64,000 bases of DNA from Bacteroidales bacterium (lineage in GTDB: Bacteria > Bacteroidota > Bacteroidia > Bacteroidales > UBA932): the NCBI GenBank assembly GCA_017459075.1, contig JAFUDQ010000009.1, positions 45,759-109,758 of the forward strand. Direction: 5' to 3'. The notes beneath the pieces were generated by a model. It saw only the letters and a program-made list of their open reading frames with translations. It had not been told where the DNA came from and did no database searches. Positions 1 to 62,277 of the stretch are shown piece by piece. Position numbers and translations under genes: made by a program. Position 1 is the first letter of the stretch. Every line of letters starts with the position of its first letter.

Positions 1-117
1 GCTTCGCTCGCTCGAAATGACAGAGGACTCGCTCGAAATGACAGAGGACTCGCTCGAAATGACAGAGGACTCGCTCGAAATGACAAATTTGTCATCCCGA
101 GCGAAGCCGAGGGGTCT
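1..117. repeat. Hairpin repeat plus 21-nt tandem units inside the methyltransferase gene
   Basis: Bases 91-117 carry one full copy of the hairpin repeat (GTCATCCCGAGCGAAG then CCGAGGGGTCT). It is joined to about four tandem 21-nt units built on CGCTCGAAATGACAGAGGACT (roughly 1-90). The whole block is in frame with the minus-strand methyltransferase. Confidence 0.85.
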
Positions 118-336
118 CAGAACCTTGCACAGCAGGGGCGTTTCGGCGGTCAGTTCCAGAATCTCCGGGCAAATGAACAGCGTATCTATCCGGAAACCAG
201 CTTCAAGTGCGTGCTCCAGTTCCCTTCTGCCTTCCAAAACAAAAAGGCCCTTCTCCCGCCGCAGTTTAGACTTCTCCTGCAACGCCAGCAACTCCTTAAC
301 CTTCGGATTCTGTCCAGATGTAATTCTCTCTGCCAT
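1..336 (-). CDS. SpoU/TrmH-family RNA 2'-O-methyltransferase, N-terminal part (cut by window edge)
   Basis: The ATG at 336-334 opens a frame that stays open for 112 codons to base 1, so the C-terminal SPOUT catalytic domain lies outside the window. The first 70 or so residues match the substrate-binding domain of TrmH/RlmB-type methyltransferases: ITSGQNPKVKELLALQEKSK followed by LRREKGLFVLEGRREL. These enzymes methylate a ribose 2'-OH in rRNA or tRNA using S-adenosylmethionine. It starts 10 bp after the lysS stop codon, so the two are probably cotranscribed. From about residue 73 the frame enters hairpin repeats read as ISSESSV units, just where the linker between the two domains is expected. 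Whether the full gene is intact cannot be judged from this window. Confidence 0.72.
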   Translation of the reverse strand, partial: MAERITSGQNPKVKELLALQEKSKLRREKGLFVLEGRRELEHALEAGFRIDTLFICPEILELTAETPLLCKVLRPLGFARDDKFVISSESSVISSESSVISSESSVISSERS

Positions 337-13069: not shown

Positions 13070-14073
13070 TGGCTGCGCTTCTGTGCGCCATTGCCTGTAA
13101 TAAAAGCGAAATGAAAGTTAACGAACTGATACAAATTCCTGATGCTGCATATGCAAAAGGCGTTTCTGCGCCTTTCTGCGGTATGATTGGCGATGCCCTT
13201 GTGGTTGCCGGCGGTGCCAACTTTCCTGATAAACCTTTGTTGGAAGGTGGTGCAAAGCGGGTTTATGCCGATATCTGGTGTTATGCCGATGCTGCCTGGA
13301 CCCATGCCGGCGTGCTTCCGGATTCAACCGCCTACGGTGCCACTTTTGCCTTTGATGGCAAACTGCTTTTTGCCGGAGGAAACGTTAACGGAAAGACCAC
13401 GGACAAAGTTTATTCCGTTTCCTTGAATGACGGAATAGCATCCGTTACTGACTTCGCTTCCTTGCCTGAGCCGATGGAGCAGGCTGGCTGGGCCCAGGAC
13501 TGGAGCCGTATGATAATAGGCGGCGGGGTTGGTACGAAAAACATTTATTGTTTTGATGCCGCTTCGGGCCAGTGGCAGAAGTTCGCAGAATTGCCTGAGC
13601 CCCTTGTACAGCCGGTTTTCTATCTTACCGGCGGCAAGCTGTATGTTTGGGGAGGCTTTAATCCGGAGACCCTTGAAGTATCTGATAAAGGACTTTGCTA
13701 TGCCGATGGTGCATGGACGGAGGCTCCTGGAATTCCTGACGGAGGCACTTTTACCGGTGCAACCGGCGCCGTCCTTCCGGACGGCCGCCTTGCCGTAATT
13801 GGCGGAGTGAACCGCGAGATTTTCGCGCGTGCCCTCCACAACACCCCGGAGGACAGGATTCCTTATCTTTCAAAAGAGCCTCAGGAATACAGGTTTCGTA
13901 AAGATGTTTACGTGTTTGACGCATCCTCCGGCTGGTCGCTTGCAGCTACTGCCGATGTGTGCGCCCTTGCCGGTCCTGGCATTGCTGCGGCTGGTGAAAA
14001 CGCCCTTTACGTAGCCGGAGGCGAGCTTAAGCCCGGAGTCCGCAGCCCCCGCATTTTTAAAATTGAATGGTAA
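13048..14073 (+). CDS. Kelch-type N-acetylneuraminate mutarotase-like lipoprotein (NanM/YjhT family)
   Basis: The 341-aa protein shows six kelch-like blades marked by repeated GG turns (VVAGGANF, LFAGGNVN, MIIGGGVG, YVWGGFN, AVIGGVN, YVAGGELK). NanM-type propellers speed the alpha/beta interconversion of free sialic acid outside the cytoplasm. The start at 13048 gives a basic n-region and lipobox (MGRRIVLMAALLCAIAC, Cys17). The alternative ATG at 13069, overlapping the epimerase stop as TAATG, would lose the positive charges. The protein is predicted to be membrane-anchored, whereas E. coli NanM is a soluble periplasmic protein. Confidence 0.78.
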   Translation: MGRRIVLMAALLCAIACNKSEMKVNELIQIPDAAYAKGVSAPFCGMIGDALVVAGGANFPDKPLLEGGAKRVYADIWCYADAAWTHAGVLPDSTAYGATFAFDGKLLFAGGNVNGKTTDKVYSVSLNDGIASVTDFASLPEPMEQAGWAQDWSRMIIGGGVGTKNIYCFDAASGQWQKFAELPEPLVQPVFYLTGGKLYVWGGFNPETLEVSDKGLCYADGAWTEAPGIPDGGTFTGATGAVLPDGRLAVIGGVNREIFARALHNTPEDRIPYLSKEPQEYRFRKDVYVFDASSGWSLAATADVCALAGPGIAAAGENALYVAGGELKPGVRSPRIFKIEW

Positions 14074-15320
14074 CCCATATGAAAGGAAAACTTCAAAAAT
14101 ATTACCCCTGGCTTGTCGTAGCCATGCTTTGGGTTGTAGCCCTGCTTAACTACATGGACAGGCAGATGCTTTCCACAATGCAGGGAGCGATGGCCCAGGA
14201 TATCAAGGAGCTTGAACTGGCCCAGAATTTTGGCCGCCTGATGGCTATTTTCCTCTGGATTTATGCGATTGTAAGCCCCTTCGCCGGAACAGTCGCAGAC
14301 AGGGTCAGCCGCAAGTGGCTGATTGTGGGCTCGTTGGCTGTGTGGTCTACCGTAACCCTTCTCATGGGGCACTGCACCACCTTCAACCAGCTTTACTGGC
14401 TGCGAGCCCTCATGGGCGTGAGCGAGGCTCTGTATATTCCTTCCAGCCTTTCCCTTATTGCCGATTATCATACCGGCAAGGCCAGGTCTCTGGCTGTGGG
14501 AATACACATGACGGGCCTTTATCTTGGCCAGGCTATCGGCGGATTCGGAGCAAGTTTTGCCCAGAACCTCAGCTGGCAGGAGACCTTCCACTGGTTCGGT
14601 CTTGTGGGTGTGCTGTATGCGGTTGTACTCATGGTTTGCCTTCGCGACAAGCGTTCAGAGCCCCAGCCTTTGGCTGAGTCCAATCTGGCAAAACCGGCAA
14701 AGGAGTCTGTATTCAAGTCGTTTGCGCTTATTTTTACCAATATCGCATTCTGGGCTATACTGTTCTTCTTCGCCTCGTCTTCACTTCCGGGCTGGGCAAC
14801 AAAGAACTGGCTTCCTACCCTGTTCTCTGACAGTCTTGGAATAGACATGACAAAGGCCGGACCTATGGCAACCATCGTCATAGCGGCAGCCTCTTTCGTG
14901 GGTGTGTTCATCGGCGGTATCCTGTCTGACAAATGGGTCAAGAAGAATCTTAAAGGACGCGTTTATACAAGCGCCATCGGCCTTAGTATGATGGTGCCCG
15001 CCCTTGTCCTGATTGGCCTTGGCAAGGGCAGCGTTGCTGCAATTTCCGCCGGAGTGCTCTTCGGAATAGGTTACGGTATGTTCGATACCAATAATATGCC
15101 TATCCTCTGCCAGTTCGTTCCTGCGCGCCAGAGGGCTACGGCTTATGGCTTCATGAATACCATAGGCGTGGCGATGGGTGCCGTTTGTACAATGGTTCTG
15201 GGCAGCATGAAGGACAGCGGCCATCTTGGCCTTGCCTTCGCCCTTCTTGGCCTTGTTACGGCCCTGGCTCTCATAGTTCAGCTGACTGTTCTCCGCCCTA
15301 CAACTGACGACAAGCAGTAG
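14067..15320 (+). CDS. nanT: MFS transporter, probable sialic acid importer
   Basis: The 417-aa protein has about 12 transmembrane segments. It carries the major facilitator loop signature between TM2 and TM3 (AGTVADRVSRKW) and an early NYMDRQML motif typical of the anion:cation symporter/sialate group. It overlaps the mutarotase gene by 7 bp. An internal ATG at 14079 (MKGKLQKYYPW) is an equally likely start. Its place directly after lyase, epimerase and mutarotase genes makes N-acetylneuraminate the best substrate guess, but substrate specificity cannot be read from the sequence. Confidence 0.8.
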   Translation: MVTHMKGKLQKYYPWLVVAMLWVVALLNYMDRQMLSTMQGAMAQDIKELELAQNFGRLMAIFLWIYAIVSPFAGTVADRVSRKWLIVGSLAVWSTVTLLMGHCTTFNQLYWLRALMGVSEALYIPSSLSLIADYHTGKARSLAVGIHMTGLYLGQAIGGFGASFAQNLSWQETFHWFGLVGVLYAVVLMVCLRDKRSEPQPLAESNLAKPAKESVFKSFALIFTNIAFWAILFFFASSSLPGWATKNWLPTLFSDSLGIDMTKAGPMATIVIAAASFVGVFIGGILSDKWVKKNLKGRVYTSAIGLSMMVPALVLIGLGKGSVAAISAGVLFGIGYGMFDTNNMPILCQFVPARQRATAYGFMNTIGVAMGAVCTMVLGSMKDSGHLGLAFALLGLVTALALIVQLTVLRPTTDDKQ

Positions 15321-15339
15321 ATTCTGAAATACATTTTGT

Positions 15340-15406
15340 GATTCTTCACTTCTTTCATGTGACTCTGAACGAAATTCATGTCATTCTGAACGAAGTGAAG
15401 AATCTC
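15340..15406. repeat. Intergenic hairpin repeat with a 21-nt near-duplicate
   Basis: GTCATTCTGAACGAAG then TGAAGAATCT (15380-15405) is one repeat copy with an ATTCT/AGAAT stem. A diverged partial unit lies 21 nt upstream (15359-15379). Confidence 0.8.
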
Positions 15407-15426
15407 TTTTTTCCTCTGCAATTACT

Positions 15427-15457
15427 TTTGATATAAGAACAAAAAATTATATATTTG
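15427..15457 (+). promoter_or_regulatory. Bacteroidota-type promoter for recJ
   Basis: TTTG (15427-15430), a 19-base gap and TATATTTG (15450-15457) match the consensus exactly. The transcript would start only a few bases before the ATG at 15464, so the mRNA is nearly leaderless. The upstream TTG codon at 15455 lies inside the -7 element and is unlikely to be the start. Confidence 0.72.
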
Positions 15458-15463
15458 CAAACT

Positions 15464-17203: not shown

Positions 17204-17840
17204 CCTCTTTTGCGGCGGCCTGGTAGTTGGCCTTGCGGGTTTCATAAAGATTTTTCAAGAGCTCTGTGAGCTCTTTTTTTGTTTTTGCCGATGCCAGCAG
17301 TGGTCTTGAGTCGATGGCGCCTTGTTCCCACAGTCGTTCTGCTATTACCTCTATCGGCGTATCCAGCCAGATGCAGTAGCTGTTTTTCTTCACCAGTTCC
17401 AGATTCTCTGGATCCTCCAGTGTGCCACCTCCAAGAGCAAGGAAAGAGATGTCTCGACTTCGCTCGACATGACAGGAAGAATGCTCGACATGACAGGAAG
17501 AATGTTCGACCGTACCCTTTTCTGCCATTTCTACCGGGTTATTTTTTGTCATTTCTACCGGGTTATTTTTTGTCATTTCGACCGAAGTCCGATAGGACGG
17601 AGTGGAGAAATCTCCTTCCAGAATATCCATTAGGCATTCTTTTTCAAGGGAACGAAAGGCAGCTTCCCCGTCTTCCGCGAAGATGCGTGCGACGGCCTTG
17701 CCGGCGCGGCGCTCCACCTCTGCGTCCAAATCTATCCACCGGGCAGGCTGGCCGGAAGCAGAAAGCTGCGCTGCAAGCTCCCTCGCAGCCCAGCTCTTCC
17801 CGCTTCCCGGCATCCCCGCTATGGTTATAATCCTTTTCAA
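17196..17840 (-). CDS. aroK: Shikimate kinase with an in-frame repeat insertion
   Basis: The enzyme phosphorylates shikimate with ATP in aromatic amino acid synthesis. It shows a P-loop (GMPGSGKS, 9-16), the FRSLEKE segment with Arg63, the shikimate-binding glycine motif ALGGGT (about 135-140) and a lid-like region near IDSRPLL. The 214-aa length exceeds the usual 165-175. The excess (about residues 77-132) is made of repeat DNA translated as VEMTKNNP, HVEHSSC and VERSRDIS segments, placed between two conserved regions. It overlaps the upstream topoisomerase gene by 4 bp. Whether the enlarged enzyme is active is unknown. Confidence 0.85.
   Translation of the reverse strand: MKRIITIAGMPGSGKSWAARELAAQLSASGQPARWIDLDAEVERRAGKAVARIFAEDGEAAFRSLEKECLMDILEGDFSTPSYRTSVEMTKNNPVEMTKNNPVEMAEKGTVEHSSCHVEHSSCHVERSRDISFLALGGGTLEDPENLELVKKNSYCIWLDTPIEVIAERLWEQGAIDSRPLLASAKTKKELTELLKNLYETRKANYQAAAKEVR
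17448..17613. repeat. Composite hairpin-repeat array inside aroK
   Basis: The array contains a copy with a GATGTC/GACATG arm, 21-nt units (CTCGACATGACAGGAAGAATG type), two 24-nt units around GTCATTTCTACCGGGTTA, and a terminal GTCATTTC...GAAATCT hairpin. The loop of that hairpin holds a smaller GTCC/GGAC hairpin. All units preserve the aroK reading frame. Confidence 0.85.
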
Positions 17841-20749
17841 ATATTGAAAAGATTCGGCTCCTCTTCGTCGCCAAACGACATGTCGTCAATTCCAAGGTCA
17901 ATCACATCCCCCGCCACTGCATCCCGCTTCTTGGAGGTATTCTTTTTTTGAGACCCCTCGACTTCGCTCGGGGTGACAGAAGAATCGCTCGGGGTGACAG
18001 AAGAATCGCTCGGGGTGACAGAAGAATCGCTCGGGGCTTTCTCTGTCATTTCGACCGGAGGCGCAGCCGGGGTGGAGAAATCTCCTTCCTCCGGGACAGA
18101 AAGAAGGTCTATCGGCTCGTCCTCAGATTCCTCGACTTCGCTCGGAATGACAGAGGACTCGCTCGGAACAGGAAGCGGCTCGCCAAAAGCGACAGCCTTG
18201 AGGTCTAAAGCCGAACACTTCTTACCCTTAGCCGTGAACCCCTTCTTGCCAATAAACTCCTCCGCATCAATAGTCTCCGGCTGCCTGTGAGCAAACTTTC
18301 CACCGAAAGTAAGCTCAATCACAGGACGGGCATCATCAGACAAAGCCACCAAATAACTACCCTTACCATCGGCAATAAAACCAAGAGGTGTGTTGTCACT
18401 CACAGGGAAGCTGAACCTCTTCACATAGAAGGCCTTAGCCACACCATCCCAATAAAGGGCAGTATAAGTCTTGGAAGTATCCAGCTTCTCGATGCGAAGC
18501 ACATCCCCCTGGTAACGGTTGCTAAGATCGAAGGACGTCGTGTAGAAAGTACCGTTCTTGAAAACAGCCAGAATCTTGTCCTCGGAACCGAACTGACCAA
18601 GATGAGTACCGCGTCCGTCCTCATTAAGCCTCTGAACATCAGCATCGTACCAAATATCCTTGCCGCTGATGGTAGAAACGCCCTTGTTCTTCAGTGTTAT
18701 CCTCTGGATAGCATTCTTCGTTACAAGGTTGCCCCTTGAACTGCGGCCCTTGATAGCCAGGGAAGAGAAATCATACTCGGTGGAACTCTTCTTCAGCATC
18801 GGCTTCGGCCGGAAAGTAACCCTTACGCTCTCAGCCTCGCCGTTACGGTTTACTGTCATCCACATAATCTGGCTGCCAGGCTTACCCTGGGTGATATCGT
18901 ACTCCTTGTCACGGGTTATAGAAGTGATGTTGAAGCGCTTGGCGTAGTAAATTGATGATTTGCCATCACGGTAAATGACATTGTAGGTAGTACGGTCGTC
19001 GCCACGGTTGAAGACATCTACATGAACCAGCTCCTTTGCAATGAAAGCCTTGTCCATGACCTTCGTCACCCTGTATTTGCCATCTTTGCCGATGGTGATG
19101 ATTTCGCTTAGGTCAGAGCAGTCGCAGATATACTCTCCGCCATCGTCTTTCTTTAAGCCGATGCCCACGAAACCCTCTTCCTTATTGGCATAGAGCTTGG
19201 CGTTATTGTTAACCACCTTGGTGACCGCAATCGTCTCAAAACTGGTGATTTCCGTCTGGCGGGGGAACATATCCCCGTATTTCTTCTTAAGGGACTTGAA
19301 CCAGTCGATGGTGTACTTGGTAAGATGCTCCAGCTTATCCTTGAGGTCTGCAATCTGGGCCTCTATGCCGCGGATTTTCTCATCCACAGCCTTGACATCG
19401 AACTTGGAAATCTTGCGGACAGGCTTTTCAACCAGCTTAAGGATGTCATCCATTACAATCTCGCGATGAACCTGGTTCTGGAACTGCTTCATGGCATCAA
19501 AAACCTCCTGAAGCTGGATTTCCCAGGTCTTCTGGTCCTGCTCCAGCACCTTGTAGATGCGGTTTTCAAAGAAAATTTTCTCCAGAGAGTTGTAATGCCA
19601 ATCGTCCTCCAGCTCGTCCAGACGAATCTGGAGCTGGCGTCCCAGAAGTTCCTTGGTGTGGTTGGTGCTGTATTCCAGCACATCGTTAACACTCAGGAAC
19701 TGAGGCTTGTTGTCTACGATAACGCAGGCGTTGGGGGCGATGGTGGTCTCGCAGTCCGTAAAGGCGTAAAGGGCGTCAATCGTCTTGTCCGGGGATACAT
19801 CGTTAGGAAGGTGAATCACGATTTCCACCTTCTCCGTAGTCATATCCTCAATCTTCTTTATCTTGATTTTACCCTTGTCCTTTGCCTTAAGGATAGTGTC
19901 AATCACCTGTCCCGATGTCTTCCCGTAAGGAATTTCAGTTATGGCGATGGTATTCTTGTCAATCTTTTCTATGCGGGCGCGAACCTTGACGGAGCCACCA
20001 CGCTTGCCGGCCATATACTTGGAGCATTCGGCGAAGCCTCCGGTAGGGAAGTCCGGGAAAATCTCGTAGGGCTCACCCTTCAGGATAGCCACTGATGCAT
20101 CCAGGAGCTCGTTGAAGTTATGGGGCAGAATCTTTGAAGCCATACCAACGGCGATTCCCTCAGTACCCTGTGCAAGCAGGAGAGGGAAGCGTACCGGGAG
20201 CTCCGTAGGCTCCTGGTTACGGCCGTCGTAAGAGGTCATCCAGTTTGTAATCTTGGGGTCGAAAACAACCTCTTTGGCAAACTTGCTGAGGCGGGCTTCA
20301 ATGTATCGGGGGGCAGCATTGCTGTCTCCGGTAAGAATGTTACCCCAGTTTCCCTGGCAGTCTACCGTGAAGCCTTTCTGGCCCAGTTGTACAAGGGCGC
20401 CAAGAATGGAAGCATCGCCGTGAGGGTGATACTGCATGGCCTGGCCAACGATATTGGCCACCTTGGTGAAGCGGCCGTCGTCCATCTTGTACATGGCATG
20501 AAGCACGCGCCTTTGCACCGGCTTCAGGCCATCCACGATATGAGGCACGGCCCTGGCCAGGATTACGTATGAAGAGTAATCCAGGAACCAGTCCTTGAAC
20601 ATTCCGGACAGCTTGAACTTTGTGCTGTCCTCTCCCAAAAGACGGTCGTACCGTCCGCTGGGCGCTGCCGAATCGTCCAATGGCTCGCCGGCATCATCGT
20701 CGTCGTACTGACCGCCGATGTTCTTGATGTCATCCCATTCTTCGCTCAT
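17837..20749 (-). CDS. parC: DNA topoisomerase IV subunit A
   Basis: The 970-aa protein is the DNA-cleaving subunit of a type IIA topoisomerase. It has an N-terminal winged-helix/tower core with catalytic Tyr149 (NAAPRYIEARL), the HPHGD motif (108-112) and a C-terminal beta-propeller-like region. An acidic tail carries repeat-encoded sequence at about residues 860-933 (VIPSEVEES, DSSVTPS repeats, VTPSEVEGS). The ordered C terminus after the insert ends DDMSFGDEEEPNLFNI. The residue after HPHGD is Ala113, whereas many quinolone-sensitive enzymes have Ser there. It is called ParC rather than GyrA on general resemblance to Bacteroidota topoisomerase IV, and no gyrase is present here for comparison. 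Confidence 0.88.
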   Translation of the reverse strand: MSEEWDDIKNIGGQYDDDDAGEPLDDSAAPSGRYDRLLGEDSTKFKLSGMFKDWFLDYSSYVILARAVPHIVDGLKPVQRRVLHAMYKMDDGRFTKVANIVGQAMQYHPHGDASILGALVQLGQKGFTVDCQGNWGNILTGDSNAAPRYIEARLSKFAKEVVFDPKITNWMTSYDGRNQEPTELPVRFPLLLAQGTEGIAVGMASKILPHNFNELLDASVAILKGEPYEIFPDFPTGGFAECSKYMAGKRGGSVKVRARIEKIDKNTIAITEIPYGKTSGQVIDTILKAKDKGKIKIKKIEDMTTEKVEIVIHLPNDVSPDKTIDALYAFTDCETTIAPNACVIVDNKPQFLSVNDVLEYSTNHTKELLGRQLQIRLDELEDDWHYNSLEKIFFENRIYKVLEQDQKTWEIQLQEVFDAMKQFQNQVHREIVMDDILKLVEKPVRKISKFDVKAVDEKIRGIEAQIADLKDKLEHLTKYTIDWFKSLKKKYGDMFPRQTEITSFETIAVTKVVNNNAKLYANKEEGFVGIGLKKDDGGEYICDCSDLSEIITIGKDGKYRVTKVMDKAFIAKELVHVDVFNRGDDRTTYNVIYRDGKSSIYYAKRFNITSITRDKEYDITQGKPGSQIMWMTVNRNGEAESVRVTFRPKPMLKKSSTEYDFSSLAIKGRSSRGNLVTKNAIQRITLKNKGVSTISGKDIWYDADVQRLNEDGRGTHLGQFGSEDKILAVFKNGTFYTTSFDLSNRYQGDVLRIEKLDTSKTYTALYWDGVAKAFYVKRFSFPVSDNTPLGFIADGKGSYLVALSDDARPVIELTFGGKFAHRQPETIDAEEFIGKKGFTAKGKKCSALDLKAVAFGEPLPVPSESSVIPSEVEESEDEPIDLLSVPEEGDFSTPAAPPVEMTEKAPSDSSVTPSDSSVTPSDSSVTPSEVEGSQKKNTSKKRDAVAGDVIDLGIDDMSFGDEEEPNLFNI
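17951..18168. repeat. Hairpin-repeat array inside the topoisomerase IV gene
   Basis: Full copies occupy 17951-17977 (ACCCC/GGGGT stem) and 18125-18151 (ATTCC/GGAAT stem). Three 21-nt tandem units follow the first (GACAGAAGAATCGCTCGGGGT), and a GTCATTTC...GAAATCT copy lies at about 18046-18083. All are in frame with the minus-strand gene. Confidence 0.88.
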
Positions 20750-20758
20750 ATCTGTCTA

Positions 20759-21655
20759 CTATTCTTCGTATCCGAATTTTCTTAATTCCTTCCGACTGGT
20801 GCGCCAGTCGCTGTCTACTTTTACGAAAAGGCTTAGGAAAACCTTCTTCTGGAAGAAGTCTTCCATTTCTATGCGGGCGGCAGTGCCCAGCCTCTTCATG
20901 GCCTCTCCCTTTTTGCCTATGAGGATGCCCTTCTGGGAGTCCCTCATTACGTAAATCACCGCGCTGATATCGTATTTTTCCTGTCCCTCAAGGAACTGTT
21001 CCACAACTACTTCGCAGCTGTAGGGAATCTCCTTGTCATAGAGCAGAAGTATCTTTTCGCGGATAATTTCAGAGGCGAAGAACCTGAGGTTCCTGTCAGT
21101 AAAAGTATCTTTGTCATACCATGGCGGGCTTACGGGAAGATTCTCCACTATGGTATTGTAAACATTTTCCAGATTGAACCTCTCCTGGGCGGAAACCGGG
21201 AAGATTATCGCCTTGGGGAGTTGTTCCTGCCACCACTGCATCAGTGAGGTCACCGTCTTCTGGTCGCTGATATCGATTTTGTTGATGACCAGTATAACGG
21301 GGCATTCCAGACGCTTCAGCTTGTCTATGTATTCTACGTTTTTGTCAGCCTTTTCCACTACATCGGTAACGTAAAGGATAAGGTCGGCATCGCCAATTGC
21401 AGTATCCACAAAGTTCATCATGTTCTGCTGGAGGCGGTAGTTCGGCTTCAGGATGCCGGGGGTGTCGGAATATACAATCTGGTAATCATCGGTATTGACG
21501 ATACCCATGATTCTGTGCCTGGTGGTCTGCGCCTTCGCCGTTACGATGGACAGCTTTTCACCAACCAGGGCATTCATAAGGGTAGATTTGCCAACATTCG
21601 GGTTGCCGATGATGTTGACAAATCCAGCCTTGTGCTTTTTCTGACTGCCTTCCAT
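20759..21655 (-). CDS. era: GTPase Era
   Basis: The 298-aa protein assists 16S rRNA maturation and 30S assembly. The GTPase domain has G1 GNPNVGKST (about 17-25), G3 DTPG and G4 NKID, followed by a KH RNA-binding domain with the GxxG-type loop in LIGKKGEAMKRLGTAAR. The length is typical. The ATG overlaps the stop of the upstream pseudouridine synthase gene as TAATG, suggesting translational coupling. The topoisomerase IV gene begins 9 bp downstream. Confidence 0.95.
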   Translation of the reverse strand: MEGSQKKHKAGFVNIIGNPNVGKSTLMNALVGEKLSIVTAKAQTTRHRIMGIVNTDDYQIVYSDTPGILKPNYRLQQNMMNFVDTAIGDADLILYVTDVVEKADKNVEYIDKLKRLECPVILVINKIDISDQKTVTSLMQWWQEQLPKAIIFPVSAQERFNLENVYNTIVENLPVSPPWYDKDTFTDRNLRFFASEIIREKILLLYDKEIPYSCEVVVEQFLEGQEKYDISAVIYVMRDSQKGILIGKKGEAMKRLGTAARIEMEDFFQKKVFLSLFVKVDSDWRTSRKELRKFGYEE

Positions 21656-22857: not shown

Positions 22858-22879
22858 TTTAAAGACCCTCTCGGGCGTT

Positions 22880-23662: not shown

Positions 23663-23665
23663 ACT

Positions 23666-24079: not shown

Positions 24080-24082
24080 GTT

Positions 24083-24817: not shown

Positions 24818-24907
24818 ATTTTTGCAAAAATTTTAATTATCAATTATCCGGTGTTTCATGTTATTCCCGGCTCCGCTGGCCTCCACAATGCCTTCGCACC
24901 CTTCATT

Positions 24908-24944
24908 GTCATTTCGACCGAGCGAGGCGAGCGGAGAAATCTCC
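24908..24944. repeat. Hairpin repeat copy
   Basis: GTCATTTCGACC...GGAGAAATCTC with an ATTTC/GAAAT stem, downstream of no gene and in the exbB upstream region. Confidence 0.85.
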
Positions 24945-25027
24945 AATCTGCAAAAATAGTGAAAATCTTATAGATTTTAAAATAAATCTTTTCCTGTTGT
25001 TCCCGGCCCCGACCGGGAATCCCCTTT

Positions 25028-25071
25028 GTCATTTCGACCGAAGGCCGTCAGGCCGCAGCGGAGAAATCTCT
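25028..25071. repeat. Hairpin repeat copy with nested hairpin in its loop
   Basis: The ATTTC/GAAAT stem is the same as in the copy at 24908, but the loop contains an extra GGCC-GTCA-GGCC hairpin. Confidence 0.85.
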
Positions 25072-25114
25072 TCCCCAGGTGCTTATATGGGTGCTATGCT
25101 GTGGACCGTTGTAA

Positions 25115-28325: not shown

Positions 28326-29117
28326 TCAATATTCAACTTTCGATAAAAACAGTGCGTTTCCGGGGACCGATTCACCAGCGGCGCAGCGGTCTTTGGAAGC
28401 CAGCACTTCCTCCATGTGCGATACCGGATACCGGCCCCGTCCGATGTCCAGAAGCGTACCAACCACGGCCCGGACCATGTTCCGCAGGAACCTGTCCGCT
28501 GATATGGTAAAAACCAGGTACAGTGACCCTTCGACTTCGCTCAGGGTGACAGGAGCGTTGGGATAGTCCATGATGGAAACATGAGTGGGGATGTAGGGCC
28601 TCCAGCCGGCCTCAAAAACAGTACAAACCGAAGTCTTGTTGTTACCCCCGGTTTTTTCAAAACAACTGAAATCATGAGTGCCAAGAAGAACCCTGCACGC
28701 CTCATTCATGGCAGCCACATCCAAAGGATAGGTATATAGGTAGGAATAAATCCTCACAAACGGGTCCTTTTTTCTGTGAATGAAATAGTTGTACCTCCTG
28801 AGCCGGGCATCAAACCGCGCATGGAAACCATCGGCCACAATTTTCACTTCGTGAATAATCACCGAAGATGGCAAAATGGCATTTAATTTGCAGCAAATCT
28901 CTTCTTCGCGGAGGGGCGCCGAAGCGTCAAAGTGAGCAACGTAAGAAACCGCGTTCACACCGGCATCGGTCCTCCCCGCCCCGGTAACAGAAACGGACTC
29001 GCGGAGGGCGAGCGAAAGAGCCCTCTCAAGAGCCTCCTGCACGGAGGGAGCGTTCGGCTGGATTTGCCAGCCGCTGAAAGACGAACCGTCGTAGGATAAT
29101 GTGACCGAATAACGCAT
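28326..29117 (-). CDS. truA: tRNA pseudouridine(38-40) synthase TruA with a short in-frame repeat
   Basis: The enzyme converts uridines 38-40 of the tRNA anticodon arm to pseudouridine. It begins MRYSVTLSYDGSSFSGWQ and carries the catalytic aspartate in GAGRTDAGVNA. The frame could be extended to 29165, but a TAnnTTTG element (29132-29125) sits between the two candidate starts, so 29117 is chosen (263 aa). At about residues 189-198 a hairpin repeat is translated as APVTLSEVEGS, between conserved strands before LYLVFTISADRFLRNMVRA. The insert is short and probably tolerated. Confidence 0.9.
   Translation of the reverse strand: MRYSVTLSYDGSSFSGWQIQPNAPSVQEALERALSLALRESVSVTGAGRTDAGVNAVSYVAHFDASAPLREEEICCKLNAILPSSVIIHEVKIVADGFHARFDARLRRYNYFIHRKKDPFVRIYSYLYTYPLDVAAMNEACRVLLGTHDFSCFEKTGGNNKTSVCTVFEAGWRPYIPTHVSIMDYPNAPVTLSEVEGSLYLVFTISADRFLRNMVRAVVGTLLDIGRGRYPVSHMEEVLASKDRCAAGESVPGNALFLSKVEY
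28524..28552. repeat. Hairpin repeat copy inside truA
   Basis: GACCCTTCGACTTCGCTCAG then GGTGAC: an ACCCT/AGGGT stem copy, read in frame on the minus strand as VTLSEVEGS. Confidence 0.88.
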
Positions 29118-52407: not shown

Positions 52408-52439
52408 CGTATTTTTATTTATACTTAAAAATCCTATCT

Positions 52440-52466
52440 GTCATTTTGAACGAAGTCGAAAAATCT
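52440..52466. repeat. Hairpin repeat copy
   Basis: GTCATTTTGAACGAAG then TCGAAAAATCT, with an ATTTT/AAAAT stem. It lies just after the 3' end of phoH. Confidence 0.85.
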
Positions 52467-55175: not shown

Positions 55176-56729
55176 ATGGAAGAAGCAGAGTATAAGAGTT
55201 TATTGGACGGGATTTTTTTGAGGTTCCCGAGTGTGCAGAATGCCGGGTTTACGGGTGATGCGTATAAACCGGGCTTGGACAGGATGTCTCAGTTCCTGGA
55301 GTTGCTGGGGAATCCTCAGAGTGCGTATAAGTGTATTCATGTTGCCGGGACCAACGGAAAGGGCTCGGTGTGCAACATGCTGGCTTCGGTCTTGGCTGCA
55401 AAGGGCTACAGGACAGGTCTTTACACCTCTCCCCATATCATTGATTTCCGGGAAAGGATGCGGATAGTTGATGAAACCGTCGATGGTTCCTACGAAGGTC
55501 ATCAGGATACGGCCAGTGGCCGTAGGGGTTTGGGGAAGTGTCTCCCCCAGTATAGACAGTGTAGACGGCCGTTAGGCTGTCATTTCGACCGAAGTGGAGA
55601 AATCTACTCTTTGGTGCCGAAGGAGTATGTGTACGAATTCCTGAAGGAGTGGAGTGAGACGTTTGACAAGTTGCAGTTGTCGTTCTTTGAGATAACTACG
55701 GGGATGGCATTCAAGTGGTTTGCTGATGCCGGGGTGGATTATGCTGTTGTGGAGGTTGGTCTTGGAGGGCGCCTGGACAGTACGAATGTGATTACACCTG
55801 TTCTCAGCATTATAACTTCCATTGGCCTGGATCACTGCGATTTGCTGGGGGATACCCTTGAAAAGATTGCCTTCGAGAAGGCTGGTATCATTAAGCCGAT
55901 GGTGCCGGTAGTGATAGGGGAGTATCGGCCGGAGACGGCCCCGGTATTCCTCCAGGTGGCTTCTGAACGCAAATCTCCTATTTTCTTTGCAGAGATTTCT
56001 CCACTCCGTCCTTCGAACTCCGGTCGAAATGACAACCCTGTCATGTCGAGCGAAGTCGAGACATCTCAAATCCACTTGGATTTGCAGGGGGAGTACCAGA
56101 AGGCGAACGTGCGGACGGTGCTGACGGCGCTGGCTGTACTTGGGTTGGAGCCCGACCTTGATGCGATAGCGCATACGGCGGCGCGGACCGGCTTTGCCGG
56201 CCGGTGGGAACACTTGTCGGAGGACCCGCTGGTTATCTGCGACATCGGCCATAATGCTCATGCGCTAAAGCATAATTTCGCCCAGTTGGAGGGGATGATG
56301 GCGTCGGGAGTATATGATTGTCTTATAATTGTTTACGCTGTGATGGCGGACAAGGATTTGGACTCTATCATGCCGCTTATGCCGCGCAGGGCCCGCTACA
56401 TTTTTACTACCCCTAAAGGCAAACGCGCCCTGCCCGCAGAGCGTATTCTTGAAAAGTTCGTGGCCTATAGGGAGATTTCTCCGCTCGCTTCGCTCGGTCG
56501 AAATGACAAAGAGTCTTCACCAGGTCGAAATGACAAAGAGTCTTCACCAGGTCGAAATGACAAAGAGTCTTCACCAGGTCGAAATGACAGGGATGTTGCC
56601 ATCGACGACGTAGCGGAGGCAGTAAAAAAGGCACTCCTGATGGCATCGGCCTACAAAAAGCCGATAATATACATTGGTGGCAGTACTTTTGCAGTAGCAG
56701 AAGCAAAACCTGAATTCGGCCAAAAGTAG
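55176..56729 (+). CDS. folC: Dihydrofolate/folylpolyglutamate synthase with in-frame repeats
   Basis: The enzyme adds glutamate to dihydropteroate and folates. The chosen ATG (55176, MEEAEYKSLLDGIF) follows a large palindrome, and the longer frame from 55146 would use a TTG inside it. Motifs are the P-loop GTNGKGSVCNML (about 59-70), VVEVGLGGRLDSTN, and the C-terminal GRWEHL and DIGHNAHALKHN. The length is about 517 aa against the usual 420-430. The excess lies in three repeat blocks: residues about 110-145, 270-300 and 432-475. These fall in loops between conserved segments, so function may persist. Confidence 0.88.
   Translation: MEEAEYKSLLDGIFLRFPSVQNAGFTGDAYKPGLDRMSQFLELLGNPQSAYKCIHVAGTNGKGSVCNMLASVLAAKGYRTGLYTSPHIIDFRERMRIVDETVDGSYEGHQDTASGRRGLGKCLPQYRQCRRPLGCHFDRSGEIYSLVPKEYVYEFLKEWSETFDKLQLSFFEITTGMAFKWFADAGVDYAVVEVGLGGRLDSTNVITPVLSIITSIGLDHCDLLGDTLEKIAFEKAGIIKPMVPVVIGEYRPETAPVFLQVASERKSPIFFAEISPLRPSNSGRNDNPVMSSEVETSQIHLDLQGEYQKANVRTVLTALAVLGLEPDLDAIAHTAARTGFAGRWEHLSEDPLVICDIGHNAHALKHNFAQLEGMMASGVYDCLIIVYAVMADKDLDSIMPLMPRRARYIFTTPKGKRALPAERILEKFVAYREISPLASLGRNDKESSPGRNDKESSPGRNDKESSPGRNDRDVAIDDVAEAVKKALLMASAYKKPIIYIGGSTFAVAEAKPEFGQK
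55506..55560. repeat. 55-nt repeat family 2, copy in folC
   Basis: GATACGGCC...GGCCGTAGGGGTTT followed by a GTGTCTCCCCCAGTAT segment and GACAGT. It matches 61581-61635 at nearly every position outside the variable AGT/GGA triplet and a few others. Here it is read as DTASGRRGLGKCLPQYRQ. Confidence 0.85.
55578..55606. repeat. Hairpin repeat copy in folC
   Basis: GTCATTTCGACCGAAG then TGGAGAAATCT, ATTTC/GAAAT stem, read in frame as CHFDRSGEI. It directly follows the family 2 repeat. Confidence 0.87.
55990..56066. repeat. Two opposed hairpin repeat copies in folC
   Basis: An inverted copy (about 55990-56034, ending GGTCGAAATGAC) is followed by a direct copy with an ATGTC/GACAT stem (56040-56066). 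Both are in frame with folC. Confidence 0.85.
56470..56595. repeat. Hairpin repeat plus 27-nt tandem units in folC
   Basis: An inverted hairpin copy (GAGATTTCTCC...GGTCGAAATGAC) is followed by three 27-nt units (GTCGAAATGACAAAGAGTCT plus TCACCAG), giving the peptide repeat GRNDKESSP. Confidence 0.9.
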
Positions 56730-56770
56730 ATTCTTCGGCAGATGAATATGCCCTAGAATGACATGAGACC

Positions 56771-56796
56771 GTCATTCTGAACGAAGTGAAGAATCT
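56771..56796. repeat. Intergenic hairpin repeat copy before the macroglobulin gene
   Basis: GTCATTCTGAACGAAG then TGAAGAATCT, ATTCT/AGAAT stem, identical in core to the copy at 15380. Confidence 0.87.
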
Positions 56797-56826: not shown

Positions 56827-59800
56827 ATGAAAACTATAGCCGCAATACTTGCCGGAGCCGCCCTTGCGGGCGCGGCCCTGCTTGGAGTTTCCCTTTTTGC
56901 AAGAACCTCCGTGCCGGCCCGGCAGACGAAAGACGAAGACGGACACGTACTTTCCGCCCTCTGGAAAGAATATAAAGCCGCGCAGGCCAAAGACCTGCCG
57001 CAGGACCAGCTGAACGTACTTGAAAAGATAAAGAAACAGGCTAAGGATCAGGTCCTGGCCTACGATTTCTGGGACGCATCCAGTAAATATGTAGAAGTAT
57101 CCGTACGCCGCTACTGGAAGCTCCGCGAAAGCCTTCAAAAGGCTCTGGAGACAGAGGCAATGGCATTTCCTGACCCAATCGTCGGCTATGCATACTTGCG
57201 CAGCTATTCACCTCTGAGTGAGATGCTTGCATACGCAAAAAAGCACAAAGAAACCCTTTCGAAACACCATAACGAAGAATTTTACAAAGGCGATACCAGG
57301 ACCAATAAGCCCCTTAGCCTCACCTTTGCAAAATATATAAAAAACGATTACGAGTATGCCTTCTGGGCTATCGCCCTTGGCCCTCAGGGAAAAGAGCGGG
57401 ACGAAGCCATTCCGCTTCTAAAAGCCATCATCGGAGACTCCTATCCAACATCGCCCTACCTTGATTTTACAATTGCCGACAAGGAGCCGGATGGCTCCGA
57501 AAAATGGACGCAGGGCATGAAGGCCATCATCGACAAATATCCGGGGACAGCCGTGGCCCTGTACCCTCAGGGCAGGTTGGATTACATCCGATTCTGGAAG
57601 CTTCAGGATGAAAAGAAGTCAACGGAGACAGACTACAAGGCCCTTCTGGCCGATGTCCGTCATCACGAGGCTGCCCGCCTGGCTATGAAGGGCAGCGAGG
57701 CCGATATGGTTCGCAAGCTGGAAGACTTTATCGCCATTGACAAAAACCTGAATGACAAGGTTTTATACGTTTGCTTGGATAAAGGAAAAGCCCGCGTTTT
57801 CTTCCGCAATGTGAAGACTGCAACTCTTGTAATGAAGGAGCAGGAGGGAGAGAAGAAGGAAGTGTTCCGCCAGCAGCTTACAAATCCTAAAAATTCTTTC
57901 TATGTGCTTGACAGCCTGGATGTTACAATTCCGGATGCGGGCGACGGCAGTTTTACCGTAGAGGTCGACAGCAAGGAGAAGGGTGTAATTAATGCCGCTA
58001 ATGAAATTCGCCTGTATTCCTACGCTTTGGCTGTCCGTCGCAGTGCTGATGGCTTAGGTGTTTTTGCGGCAAATGCCGTTACTGGTCTGCCTCTGGAGAA
58101 GGCTACCCTTGTTGTTCTGCAAGACAAAAAGGAAGTAGCCAGGATTCCGATGACCTTCGGCCCGGGATATACTACTATCCCCAAATCTCCGGAGTTGAAA
58201 ATGTATTCCAGGTTGAATTATTACGTAGAAGGGATGGACGCAGCCGGTCTCACAAGAAGAAGCCCTCAAGGCTGGATTTTCTCTTTTTACGATAATGATG
58301 ATACAGACGACGAAGATAAGGACGACGAGGCCACCGGTTACAACTTCCTAAGCCAGCTTTTCCTTAATACAAAAGTCTTGCGCCCCGGCGATACCCTTCA
58401 GTATAAAGGCCTGCTGTTCAAGTACTTCAATGATAATGGCAAAATTTTCCCGGTTAAAAAAGGAACGAAGGTAAATATCGTCCTGACAGACCCGGAGGGA
58501 GATGAAATCGGCACGAATGAAAATATAATTGAAGGCCTGGGCTCTTTTGCCGGGAAGTTCGTCCTTCCAAAAGAGGTGAAAGCTGGTTCGTGGAGCGTCA
58601 GCTTTGAGTATGAAGATGAAGGCTCGGAGCGCGAAACCGTTTCCTCTGAGACCTTCTATTGCGGCGACTATGTTCTGCCCACCTTCGAGTGTAAATTTGA
58701 CAAGATGGAATGGGCTGTTTCCCCTGAGGATTCGGTGCATTTCAAAGGCACGCTTACCAGCCTTTCCGGTCATAAATTGTCCGATGCCACAATTACTTAC
58801 AAGCTTGTGAGCGGATGGAGAGAGTCTTCCGAATCCGGTACCTTGAAACCGGACGGGAATGGCCGTTTCGACATCGGCTGCATAGTTAAAGAAGGATATA
58901 ACTCACTTGAAATAATTGTTGCCGATGCAACGGGGGAAACCCTTCAGTTCCAGAATGGAATGTATGTTTCCGACTACATGAACATTGATGCTGAACTTTT
59001 GAATAAAGCCGATGGCTATCAGTTGAATAGCTATATGAATGTGCTTACGGAGGATGTGGCCAGGATTAAGGTTGATATTCAATCCGATGGTTTGAATGTC
59101 CATGATGCTGTGGCTGATTATTCACTTATCGGCCCTGATAGCAAGGTCGTTTTTAAAGGCAAAGCCGATGGTGGCAGTGTGCTGGAGTTAAATCTTGCCG
59201 GCGCGCCTGATGGAATTTATGCGCTTAAGACTGTATGCGGTACCAAGAAGTTTAAGAAATATGAGGGAACGATAAGGTTCCTGAAATTCCGTCCGGGACA
59301 TTCTATCCCTGCCGGAGTCAGTCATATTTTCCACCCCGGAGAGTCCAAAATCCAGGAGGGCGGAAACATTTCCTTCCTGCTTGGCAGCGGGGAACATCCG
59401 ATTTGGGCGGTGGCAGAGCTCTGCGGGAAAGACAACAAGGTGCTCCTGTCAAAGACTGTCTTTATCCCGAAGGGTAGCAGCGAACATATTGATATTCAGT
59501 ATCTTCCTGAATATGGAGACAATGTTTACCTGACTCTTCTTTTCTTCAGTAATTATTCATGCAAGAGGTTTAATTCCCCTTATTATCTTGAAAAGAAAGA
59601 GCGTGAGTTGCCGCTTAAGGTTACAAGGTTTACAGACAATGCTGCCCCCTCTTCAGAGGTTACAGTTGAGCTTGAAAGTGCGCCTGGGAGCGAGGCTGTG
59701 GCTTCTGTCTGGGACAAGGCTTCCGATGCTATTATGCCGAATCGCTGGGGCCGTGTTTTTGTGCCTTTTAAGGAGGCAGCGCCCATTATGCCTTCTGTTA

Positions 59801-62277
59801 TGGTGTCCACGCCATATTATGGTTCTTTCAGGGCTTATGGCATGAATCGACCTTATGATGCTGTCAGGATGGAAAAAGCTTACGCAGTTACTAGCGCAGC
59901 ACAAATACCGGTATTGTCCGATGAAATTGATATCGTTGACGACGCCATTGCGGAGGGAATATCTAATGACCTTCAGGAAATAAAAGTTATGGGTTATGCA
60001 GAAGAAGTCGTCATCCCGGAGGTGCGTTCTAATTTTTCTGAGGCGTTGTATTTTGAGCCTTATTTGAGGGCCGATGCTGACGGGCATGTGCGCTTTAGTT
60101 TCAAGACTTCTGACAAGCTTTCTACCTATCGCCTGGCCGTGTTTGCCCATGATTCGCTGCTGCGTAATAACGTGGTTGAGAAGGAGTTCAAGGTGACGAT
60201 TCCGGTAAAGGTGGATGTGCTTAATCCGGAGTTCCTGTACGATGGTGACAGGTTCTCGCTGACTGCTACGGTGTCTTCCGAGGCGTCTTCTGACCTTTCT
60301 GGAAAGCTTACGGTTTATCAGTACGACGGTGCCGATTACCGTAATCTTCAGCCCCTGTCCATTACCACCGAAGCCGTTACCGTCCCCGCCGGAGGCGTTC
60401 TCAAACAGCAGTTCCCCGTCACCCTGAGCGAAAGCGAAGGGCCTACTTCCGCAGTTAGGGGCCTGTTGGTATCCTTTAAGGGCGACGACGGCACAACGGA
60501 CGCAATGTTCATCACGGTGCCGGTGCTGGAACGTGCTCAGACTCTCACGGAGTCTCACTCCGCCGTGCTCCTTGCGGGAGCGGACAAGGATGCCCTCATG
60601 AAGGAGCTTCAGGGCCGCTTTACCGGTACCACTGCCTATGGCGCAGTGGCCAGCGAGATTTCTGTTCTGGATATGGTCAAGGAAGTGCTTAACGGGAAGC
60701 TTGAGGAGCCGCGTGAGGACGTAGTAAGCCTCACCGAGGCCTTGTATGTGCGGATGACACTCTCATATTTGAAAGAGATTTCTCCACTCGCTTCGCTCGG
60801 TCGAAATGACAAGCGCGATACGCTTGTCGAGACATCTCCTTCCTCAGTCATGTTGAGCGATTCACATGTCACCCTGAGCGAAGTCGAAGGGTCCCTCCTG
60901 GAGCGGATATTCGCCTTGCAGAACGAGGACGGCGGCTTCGCATGGTTCAAGGGTTTCAAGTCCTCACCGATATTGACGGCCATCGTGCTGGGACGCTTCC
61001 ATAAGATGAGATTTCTCCACTTCGATCGAAATGACAATTCTGTCACCCTGAGCGAAGTCGAAGGGTCTCTGGCCAAGGCTGTCAAGTACCTGGACGCCAA
61101 CCACTTCTCCAAGGCATCGGTGCTGTATTGGTGCGGCGGAATATCAGACGAACAATATATGAATATACGCGCAGCGTACGCGAACGTGCCTTTTGAGGCC
61201 CCGTCCAAGAGTGACAAGGACTCATACAAGACCTTTGAAAAGTTCAAGAAGAATGCTGCGGAATACCTCACTCCGGAAAAGGCGCGCGGCCTAAACGGCT
61301 ACATCATGGCCAAGGCCCGCCGGCTTGCCACATTGGAACTCCTGGCATCATCGGCAGAAGGAAAGAAGCTGGCCAAGGCGTGGGGAGTAAAGACCTCGGC
61401 AAAGATTGAAAGGTCTGCAAAGGAGGATGTGGCTTCGCTGGTGCAGTATGCTGTCCGCCACCGTGATGGCGGCTGGTACTATCCCAATGCCGTCATGCCA
61501 TGGCGTGGCCTTCTTGAGACCGAGGCTTATGCCCACACCATCCTCGCCTCCCTCTTGGATGACGCTGCCACAGGGGACGGGATACGGCCGGAGGCCGTAG
61601 GGGTTTGGGGGAGTGTCTCCCCCAGTATGGACAGTTCTGACCGACGTCAGTCGGGTGCCATTGGCAATAGCAACGATATTGCCAATGGTATCCGCCTATG
61701 GCTGATGCTCCAGAAGGAAACCCAGCACTGGGACACTACACCTGACTTTGTGGACGCCGTAGCATGCATACTTGAGGGAAGCAAGGAAGTGCTTGATACC
61801 AAGGTACTTACCCTTACCAAAACCTATCGTAAACCTTTTGAAGAAATAGTTGCCGCCGGCAACGGCTTCACCATCGGGCGCGAATTCTTCCGTGAAGTGA
61901 CGGGAGAAGGAGGAAAGATTGTCCGCCAACCCATGACCCAGGGTGAAACCGTACACAAGGGAGAAAAGATAACAGCCATATTCCATGTGTATAATGAAGA
62001 AAACCGGAGTTTTGTACGCCTGCACGCCCCGCGCGAGGCTACGCTAAGGCCTGTGAACCAGATATCCGGCCACACCTGGAAGGGCTACCGTGAGGTAAGG
62101 ACAACCTATACCGACTGGTTCTTTGACTCATTCCCGGAGGAAAAGGTCGATATCGCAGAAGAGTACTTTGTGACCCAGACCGGCACCTTTGCCTGCGGCG
62201 TCCCGGAGATAGAGAGCCTTTACGCTCCCCACTACCGTGCCAACGCCTCTTTCCCCGGCGTGCTGAAAGCTGAATAA
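56827..62277 (+). CDS. Alpha-2-macroglobulin-family protein with in-frame repeats
   Basis: The 1816-aa protein has a signal peptide-like start (MKTIAAILAGAALAGAALLG). Many beta-sandwich macroglobulin domains follow, including an MG2-type stretch near LNTKVLRPGDTLQYKGLLFK, the A2M bait/complement segment FEPYLRADADGHVRFSFKTS, and a helical toroid-like domain (DGGFAWFKGFKSSPILTAIV). No CxEQ thioester motif is present. Bacterial homologues may trap proteases or act as periplasmic guards. Repeat-derived insertions occur at about residues 1315-1357, 1393-1415 and 1585-1605, around and inside the helical domain. Whether the protein still folds there is uncertain. Confidence 0.85.
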   Translation: MKTIAAILAGAALAGAALLGVSLFARTSVPARQTKDEDGHVLSALWKEYKAAQAKDLPQDQLNVLEKIKKQAKDQVLAYDFWDASSKYVEVSVRRYWKLRESLQKALETEAMAFPDPIVGYAYLRSYSPLSEMLAYAKKHKETLSKHHNEEFYKGDTRTNKPLSLTFAKYIKNDYEYAFWAIALGPQGKERDEAIPLLKAIIGDSYPTSPYLDFTIADKEPDGSEKWTQGMKAIIDKYPGTAVALYPQGRLDYIRFWKLQDEKKSTETDYKALLADVRHHEAARLAMKGSEADMVRKLEDFIAIDKNLNDKVLYVCLDKGKARVFFRNVKTATLVMKEQEGEKKEVFRQQLTNPKNSFYVLDSLDVTIPDAGDGSFTVEVDSKEKGVINAANEIRLYSYALAVRRSADGLGVFAANAVTGLPLEKATLVVLQDKKEVARIPMTFGPGYTTIPKSPELKMYSRLNYYVEGMDAAGLTRRSPQGWIFSFYDNDDTDDEDKDDEATGYNFLSQLFLNTKVLRPGDTLQYKGLLFKYFNDNGKIFPVKKGTKVNIVLTDPEGDEIGTNENIIEGLGSFAGKFVLPKEVKAGSWSVSFEYEDEGSERETVSSETFYCGDYVLPTFECKFDKMEWAVSPEDSVHFKGTLTSLSGHKLSDATITYKLVSGWRESSESGTLKPDGNGRFDIGCIVKEGYNSLEIIVADATGETLQFQNGMYVSDYMNIDAELLNKADGYQLNSYMNVLTEDVARIKVDIQSDGLNVHDAVADYSLIGPDSKVVFKGKADGGSVLELNLAGAPDGIYALKTVCGTKKFKKYEGTIRFLKFRPGHSIPAGVSHIFHPGESKIQEGGNISFLLGSGEHPIWAVAELCGKDNKVLLSKTVFIPKGSSEHIDIQYLPEYGDNVYLTLLFFSNYSCKRFNSPYYLEKKERELPLKVTRFTDNAAPSSEVTVELESAPGSEAVASVWDKASDAIMPNRWGRVFVPFKEAAPIMPSVMVSTPYYGSFRAYGMNRPYDAVRMEKAYAVTSAAQIPVLSDEIDIVDDAIAEGISNDLQEIKVMGYAEEVVIPEVRSNFSEALYFEPYLRADADGHVRFSFKTSDKLSTYRLAVFAHDSLLRNNVVEKEFKVTIPVKVDVLNPEFLYDGDRFSLTATVSSEASSDLSGKLTVYQYDGADYRNLQPLSITTEAVTVPAGGVLKQQFPVTLSESEGPTSAVRGLLVSFKGDDGTTDAMFITVPVLERAQTLTESHSAVLLAGADKDALMKELQGRFTGTTAYGAVASEISVLDMVKEVLNGKLEEPREDVVSLTEALYVRMTLSYLKEISPLASLGRNDKRDTLVETSPSSVMLSDSHVTLSEVEGSLLERIFALQNEDGGFAWFKGFKSSPILTAIVLGRFHKMRFLHFDRNDNSVTLSEVEGSLAKAVKYLDANHFSKASVLYWCGGISDEQYMNIRAAYANVPFEAPSKSDKDSYKTFEKFKKNAAEYLTPEKARGLNGYIMAKARRLATLELLASSAEGKKLAKAWGVKTSAKIERSAKEDVASLVQYAVRHRDGGWYYPNAVMPWRGLLETEAYAHTILASLLDDAATGDGIRPEAVGVWGSVSPSMDSSDRRQSGAIGNSNDIANGIRLWLMLQKETQHWDTTPDFVDAVACILEGSKEVLDTKVLTLTKTYRKPFEEIVAAGNGFTIGREFFREVTGEGGKIVRQPMTQGETVHKGEKITAIFHVYNEENRSFVRLHAPREATLRPVNQISGHTWKGYREVRTTYTDWFFDSFPEEKVDIAEEYFVTQTGTFACGVPEIESLYAPHYRANASFPGVLKAE
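60774..60893. repeat. Hairpin repeat cluster in the macroglobulin gene
   Basis: An inverted ATTTC/GAAAT copy (60774-60810), a hybrid or decayed unit ending GAGACATCT, and a full ACCCT/AGGGT copy (60868-60893) lie in series. They are read in frame as SPLASLGRNDK through HVTLSEVEGS. Confidence 0.87.
61008..61068. repeat. Second hairpin repeat pair in the macroglobulin gene
   Basis: An inverted copy (about 61008-61035) is followed by a direct ACCCT/AGGGT copy (61042-61068), read as FDRNDNSVTLSEVEGS. Confidence 0.87.
61581..61635. repeat. 55-nt repeat family 2, copy in the macroglobulin gene
   Basis: Same 55-nt length and nearly the same sequence as 55506-55560, but read in a different frame (IRPEAVGVWGSVSPSMDS). 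A CCATTGGCAATAG...GCCAATGG-type inverted pair follows at about 61658-61690. Confidence 0.85.

Follow-up and report, generated by a model that had tools for sequence, protein, structure and literature searches.

A probably selfish, REP-like palindromic repeat with a TGTC head lies in frame within core genes of a Cryptobacteroides-like genome

A short palindromic repeat runs in frame through several conserved genes in a stretch of Bacteroidales DNA of 64,000 nucleotides (nt), here called the window (positions 45759-109758 of contig C48), from the 2.3 Mb, Cryptobacteroides-like genome G000. The repeat is probably a tolerated, selfish element related in kind to the repetitive extragenic palindromes (REPs), which has an unpaired TGTC head, sits in frame in core genes and grows by hairpin-linked slippage. 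In the proposed mechanism, the TGTC-headed palindrome would insert widely in the genome, genes included, and insertions into genes would survive where their net effect preserves the reading frame and they lie in a surface loop, a linker or a tail. The surviving insertions would then be translated as disordered peptide loops. REPs are named for their extragenic position, yet 15 of 21 repeat clusters on contig C48 are located wholly inside called open reading frames (ORFs), including several in conserved core enzymes (the ORFs were called greedily and cover 0.93 of the contig, which probably overestimates coding density).

In its 28-nt form the repeat opens with TGTC and a 5-base arm whose first base is A. 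There follow GA, a single base, CGAAG, two further bases, GA, the arm's complement and CT. In longer forms (36 to 43 nt) the loop is extended. An exact search with the 5' arm identified 16 copies in the window, and the whole genome contains 122 exact matches to GTCAYYYYGANCGAA and none to the reversed control. This is the highest count among the 200 genomes of the genus that were searched; at least one match occurs in 152 of them, and 20 or more occur in 35. Repeat anatomy was examined in a sample of 361,584 bases of the genome, comprising all of contig C48 and stretches picked for repeats, in which 65 repeat clusters were listed. The sample holds 158 arms. For 111 of these an exactly complementary 3' arm is within reach, a figure that includes nested arms reaching a later unit's partner; the complete copies no longer than 45 nt number 90. 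A first-order Markov control gave 12 arms, one of them partnered.

The stem is real as a nucleic-acid structure. Among 28 distinct 28-mers, which were picked by 5' arm, loop and the next GA step with no requirement on the 3' arm, 127 of 140 pairs at the five arm positions are Watson-Crick pairs; re-dealing the 3' arms yielded 77 on average and 100 at most, and none of 2000 shuffles was as high as 127. The first pair is generally A-T and the second T-A or C-G, and the five canonical pairs are followed by a G.A/A.G step and then mostly by one more pair. The 28-nt forms can have a short loop, and the loop of the 36-43 nt forms is longer or branched. In the 90 complete copies the head begins with T (86) or C (4), always followed by G, and the tail reads C (90/90), T (84/90) and then C (70/90), although the 5' arm pattern required a CGTC/TGTC-type head with at most one change and the detector required C as the first tail base, so that the head test is partly built in. 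Neighbouring copies within 20 nt are head-to-head in nine cases, seven of which join different stems, and tail-to-tail in none. Same-strand neighbours number 49, and 24 tandem arrays were found.

A preliminary description of the window had placed this repeat inside six genes, encoding a SpoU methyltransferase, AroK, the topoisomerase IV subunit ParC, TruA, FolC and a macroglobulin, without a break of frame. All six are indeed single open frames running across the repeats, and Pfam identifies AroK, ParC, TruA, FolC (Mur ligase domains) and the macroglobulin, as well as SpoU once the full gene is taken from the contig. The peptides it had named are also present, with SVISSESS in SpoU, HVERSRDIS in AroK, VTLSEVEGS in TruA and the macroglobulin, and CHFDRSGEI and GRNDK in FolC. 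Copies also occur between genes, as it had stated (e.g., at 15379 and 56770); window copies outside Pfam-positive genes start at 15379, 24907, 25027, 52439 and 56770.

Alignment of the six proteins with relatives (L-numbers denote the sequence stretches compared, mostly relatives, with L070-L072, L076, L080 and L084 from G000 itself) revealed that the segments are absent or different at the same place. In AroK, residues 77-132 correspond to DIS alone in the nearest relative, L089, and other inserts occupy this loop in L092 and L105 (14 of 64 matching relatives shown). Repeats lie in the variable C-terminal tail of ParC in the window and also in 10 of the 80 relatives (L089, L093, L101, L105, L107, L131, L137, L145, L148 and L153); arm matches in seven more loci are apparently chance coding matches or lie at the frame start. 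These 80 are chiefly rumen and gut Bacteroidales assemblies, with Candidatus Cryptobacteroides accounting for four of those retained. The TruA insert is common to the window and L199 only, among 17 relatives compared. FolC has three insert sites (15 relatives compared), the first of which has the same insert in L169, a segment of another repeat in L170 and a separate copy in L171, and L181 has a copy at a different site. The SpoU inter-domain linker contains different arrays in the window, L288 and L293, just a few residues at that position in L291, and no array in L296, L297 and L298 (11 relatives aligned). The macroglobulin has four insert sites, with related inserts at three or more of them in L226 and a different tandem repeat at one in L227 (10 relatives aligned). 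The L170 segment is a tandem peptide repeat of PKAENKG type and that of L227 is of GHDVTGHDVAG type. Both lie at the folC and macroglobulin sites that have inserts in the window, so these loops also receive other repeat families.

Mapping on structures, which had been proposed for the named hosts, was carried out for AroK among them. In an AlphaFold model built with 27 sequences, 10-residue blocks have a predicted local distance difference test score (pLDDT) of 91-98 outside residues 71-130 and 49-71 inside, so the model suggests that the fold is kept around a low-confidence insert. Alignments to solved structures place extra residues between conserved blocks at the repeats of AroK, urocanase, the dTDP-glucose dehydratase relative and IleS; the best such alignment of chorismate synthase crosses the repeat segment without a clear gap. 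Further Pfam-positive hosts in G000, listed by Pfam match and repeat without alignment to relatives, are a GH3 glycosidase, a GlcNAc epimerase-like protein, TruB, DnaX, a CCDC81-type HU protein, TrmO, an ABC transporter, a dTDP-glucose dehydratase relative, a CitG/citrate lyase ligase protein, CitX, urocanase, an amidohydrolase, an arginase-like protein, a DHODB iron-sulphur protein, an AroD-AroA fusion, chorismate synthase, a GHMP kinase, a GH97 protein and IleS. The copy sits upstream of the matched domain stretch in the arginase-like, DHODB and GHMP hosts, and copies near the N-terminus of MraZ and shikimate dehydrogenase may precede the true start. DnaX and an RmlB-like gene each carry repeats in two species. 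An origin of the inserts in misassembly or pseudogenes might be suspected from an assembly in 53 contigs with 8.16% contamination; it is very unlikely, as the same kind of inserts occurs in independent assemblies of other species, the TruA insert recurs in L199 and frames are intact across domains.

The use of reading frames was analysed with 142 of the 158 arms, those with listed stem types, and the other 16 were dropped. Sixty arms lie in Pfam-positive ORFs (including the MraZ copy, possibly upstream of the start codon) and are spread over five of the six reading frames, with both strands represented, in agreement with the different frames and strands reported earlier. The unused sixth frame is the antisense frame reading TGA, which none of 20 antisense arms occupies. 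This frame use, the relatives without the segments or with different ones, and the stem covariation bear out the earlier view that the segments are inserted DNA. A conserved domain or motif common to the six proteins would account for the recurrence of similar peptides (VTLSEVEGS, SEVEES), but it was rejected on frame use and, with intergenic copies and covariation at the nucleotide level also against it, is practically without credibility. For annotators it follows as a caution that SEVEES, CHFDRSGEI and similar peptides are not protein motifs.

Array periods give a second view of the frame. In G000 the period is divisible by three in all 13 arrays in Pfam-positive ORFs (three of them in one gene) and in 4 of 11 elsewhere. 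A second set of 27 arrays, fetched from seven other genomes for closely spaced listed matches, gave 8/8 internal arrays (six genes) and 8/19 for the rest, which includes four arrays in Pfam-positive frames that lie upstream of the matched domain, near the likely start (three with a period divisible by three and one with a period of 22). Combined, the periods are multiples of three in 21/21 arrays internal to Pfam-positive ORFs vs 12/30 others (Fisher p = 3.4e-6), or 24/25 vs 9/26 when the four pre-domain arrays are moved to the internal class, a comparison that loses some force because the class of each array was assigned after its period had been seen and some arrays share a gene. Truncated units without a full arm escape the arm pattern, so the aroK and folC arrays are absent from the set of 24. 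With codon-sized periods inside genes, the inserts appear to be translated, as disordered peptide, with the frame under selection. Removal or skipping of the inserts at the RNA or translation level, as with bypassing elements, could be imagined for a hairpin within core genes. However, skipping creates no need for codon-sized arrays, whereas every one of the 21 internal arrays has them, and the 20 antisense arms leave the stop-bearing frame unused. The frame data thus argue against skipping at the RNA or ribosome level, which is highly improbable.

The arrays are polar, with incomplete 5' arms and a short spacer followed by the sole complete hairpin at the 3' end. This pattern was observed in 21 of the 24 arrays of the G000 sample (of the remainder, two have all copies complete and one has no complete copy) and in 24 of the 27 arrays of the other genomes. 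In several arrays, though not in others, the spacer ends in bases similar to those that precede the first arm. After insertion, the element would grow by repeated duplication of the 5' arm and spacer, and polar arrays ending in one complete hairpin would arise when DNA synthesis is arrested at the hairpin and the new strand slips back; such arrest and slippage is the likely cause of the arrays. The polar arrays are tangible evidence of a possible mode of growth of such elements. Contig C42 (L071) of the same assembly differs from window positions 13913-25995 by one mismatch over ~12.1 kb, and its aroK has two extra 21-nt units (+42 nt, 14 residues) with the frame intact, as slippage at the hairpin could produce; this length difference is seen in a single metagenome-assembled genome and may be due to assembly.

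Mobilisation would occur in trans, possibly by diverged HUH proteins similar to the REP-associated tyrosine transposases (RAYTs). Matches in G000 number two for PF01797 and four for a RAYT-like profile (A1) built from 8 proteins selected among blastp matches, and the two RAYT-like HUH proteins of G000 that were examined are 52% identical to each other. The NCBIfam model REP_Tyr_transpos was the sole match, below cut-off, for all five RAYT-like proteins scanned. Across the genus (200 genomes), genomes with higher RAYT-like counts tend to contain more repeats (Spearman 0.449, uncorrected for relatedness, and with RAYT-like counts that are lower bounds in most repeat-rich genomes, where at most 11 candidates were scored). 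Furthermore, a RAYT-like gene is present in 35/35 genomes with 20 or more repeats vs 136/165 others (Fisher p = 0.003). These data favour a pair in which the repeat is actively moved by the RAYT-like HUH proteins of the genus, but the RAYT-like genes have no flanking repeat, and repeats also occur, up to 18 per genome (median 1), in the 29 genomes that lack a RAYT-like match. Active movement by these proteins is therefore put forward tentatively and is, on balance, doubtful.

Several results weigh against a REP-like element that is mobilised in trans and grows at its hairpin, besides the possible assembly effect in aroK and the late assignment of array classes. DNA folding energies of four representative copies were no better than those of shuffles (z -0.10, -0.48, -0.49 and +0.80), and exceptional hairpin stability was rejected on this basis. 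At most one repeat is present in 21 of the 97 genomes that have at least six RAYT-like matches. The scanned flanks of the two RAYT-like genes examined in G000 contain no arm, and no RAYT-like gene flanked by the repeat was found among 30 loci, three of which have an arm anywhere in the flank (some loci represent the same gene, and distances were unmeasured). A dedicated transposase was not found in a search confined to RAYT-like genes, other transposase classes not having been looked at.

Comparison with known systems puts the repeat closest to the CGTC/TGTC-tagged REPs, which include the Rickettsia palindromic elements (RPEs) RPE-4 and RPE-6; this is the best reading of the likenesses. The core of the repeat presumably resembles the core of the Rickettsia RPEs. 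CGTC- or TGTC-headed REPs have been reported in five phyla including Bacteroidetes, with intragenic copies in several species, and are described with a stem of 8-9 bp, complementary A-T residues at positions 1 and 2 and a loop of 4-5 nt (Di Nocera et al., 2013; PMC3733652). Intragenic CGTC repeats of R. conorii correspond to RPE-4 and RPE-6, the recB genes of two Xanthomonas species have inserts at about the same site, and inserts are reported in DNA replication/repair and pseudouridine synthase genes (PMC3733652), which recalls DnaX, UvrA, ParC, TruA and TruB here. The present repeat shares with this group the unpaired CGTC/TGTC head, a short stem whose first pair is generally A-T, Bacteroidetes among the hosts, a predominance of head-to-head pairs that mostly join different stem types, some intragenic copies and the lack of a transposase gene flanked by the repeat. 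However, the tail here is mostly CTC and theirs mostly CCA, same-strand tandem clusters are common here and rare or negligible there, 15 of the 21 clusters on contig C48 lie in called ORFs, and polar arrays are not mentioned for CGTC REPs in the portions consulted. Since tail and clustering differ, membership in the CGTC-tagged REPs is not claimed.

Palindromes lying in frame inside genes have already been described in Rickettsia, and GTAG and CGTC REPs within genes in several bacteria (PMC3733652; PMC2229807; PMC10969869). A Rickettsia guanylate kinase with a palindromic insert is translated and active (PMC2229807). Palindromes in frame within core genes are thus less new than the preliminary description supposed. 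The present elements resemble the RPEs in this respect, but they are found in another phylum and form arrays with codon-sized periods, and the RPEs of PMC2229807 are longer (105-146 bp). The GTAG REPs with their RAYT transposases are likewise short palindromes, presumed to be mobilised in trans by HUH proteins, but the head here is TGTC, and no RAYT-like gene flanked by the repeat was found. Literature searches on the repeat strings, a peptide, and in-frame palindromes of Bacteroidetes or Cryptobacteroides returned no description (judged for Cryptobacteroides by titles and the beginnings of abstracts). Polar half-element arrays, codon-sized periods in genes and, apart from Xanthomonas recB, the reuse of the same loops by different copies were not met in the portions of literature consulted. 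The finding extends a known kind of element, the intragenic palindromic repeat, to another genus at high density.

The preliminary description held that the insertions must be tolerated or even put to use; tolerance fits the data, and nothing found supports use. Arrays kept as contingency-type minisatellites, in which a change of loop length in core enzymes is useful to the cell, would be consistent with independent inserts at the same sites across species (ParC tail, AroK loop, SpoU linker), with DnaX and the RmlB-like gene having inserts in two species each, and with the array-length difference between near-identical contigs. Usefulness to the host is nevertheless improbable, given that the hosts are functionally unrelated, frames and strands differ, many species have no insert, and inserts at shared sites differ in sequence and frame except those common to close relatives; loops are, moreover, the places where inserts harm least. 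The tolerated, selfish element is thus preferred. An extended form of it, a self-extending coding minisatellite, is unlikely: a hairpin would land in a gene after a first insertion supplied by diverged RAYT-like HUH proteins, and arrest at its loop would reiterate the 5' arm alone, adding codon-sized peptide units throughout the genus. If true, variation in linker length in the loops of core enzymes would have a general source in such elements. The genus offers many natural comparisons of presence and absence, which makes the absorption of new DNA by proteins directly testable.

Table 1. Repeat copies and inserts in the window (window coordinates unless stated).
Feature	Position	Strand	Remarks
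SpoU rRNA methyltransferase, in-frame array	1..117	-	four 5' arms, 21-nt period, and head-to-head partner copy; gene is C48:45093-46124; gene and last copy of array extend beyond window edge
Single intergenic copy	15379..15405	+	stem ATTCT
aroK insert, 56 codons (aa 77-132)	17445..17612	-	two opposite copies and truncated units; gene 17196-17840 -
Topoisomerase IV subunit A (ParC), C-terminal tail inserts	17951..18163	-	include 21-nt array with three arms; gene 17837-20749 -
Two copies, no Pfam-positive ORF there	24907..25069	+	copies begin at 24907 and 25027
Single truA copy	28524..28559	-	peptide NAPVTLSEVEGS; gene 28326-29165 -
Single copy immediately outside PhoH gene	52439..52466	+	
First folC insert	55506..55610	+	second repeat family (55505-55575), then one copy of main repeat
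Second folC insert	56007..56069	.	head-to-head pair, two different stem types
Third folC insert	56469..56591	-	complete copy and three truncated 27-nt units, antisense to folC
Intergenic copy between folC and macroglobulin gene	56770..56796	+	
Decayed copy in alpha-2-macroglobulin gene	60418..60441	+	gene 56827-62277 +
Macroglobulin insert	60775..60894	.	two copies in opposite orientation
Macroglobulin head-to-head pair	61015..61068	.	
Second repeat family in frame in macroglobulin gene	61573..61665 (repeat 61580-61650)	+	

Rfam gave no match in the window at gathering scores. A phage vehicle was considered and rejected, the 28-mer form with stem ATTTC having been found in just one IMG/VR stretch by a search that covered that form alone. 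Distant parts of the genome contain stretches of ~300-700 nt (in L070, L076, L080 and L084) with 83-94% identity to one another. The second repeat family, unrelated to the first, is ~71 nt long (GGATACGGCC...) and has three copies in the sampled stretches, all within ORFs; they are located in FolC (55505-55575) and the macroglobulin (61580-61650), in different frames, and in the HU-CCDC81 protein (L072:4375). Two further repeats were observed in the window, namely a scattered 21-nt repeat within a predicted minus-strand ORF (22499-22834) and a 12-nt tandem repeat in a predicted ORF (34454-34567), which would code for a Gln/Asn/Asp-rich stretch.

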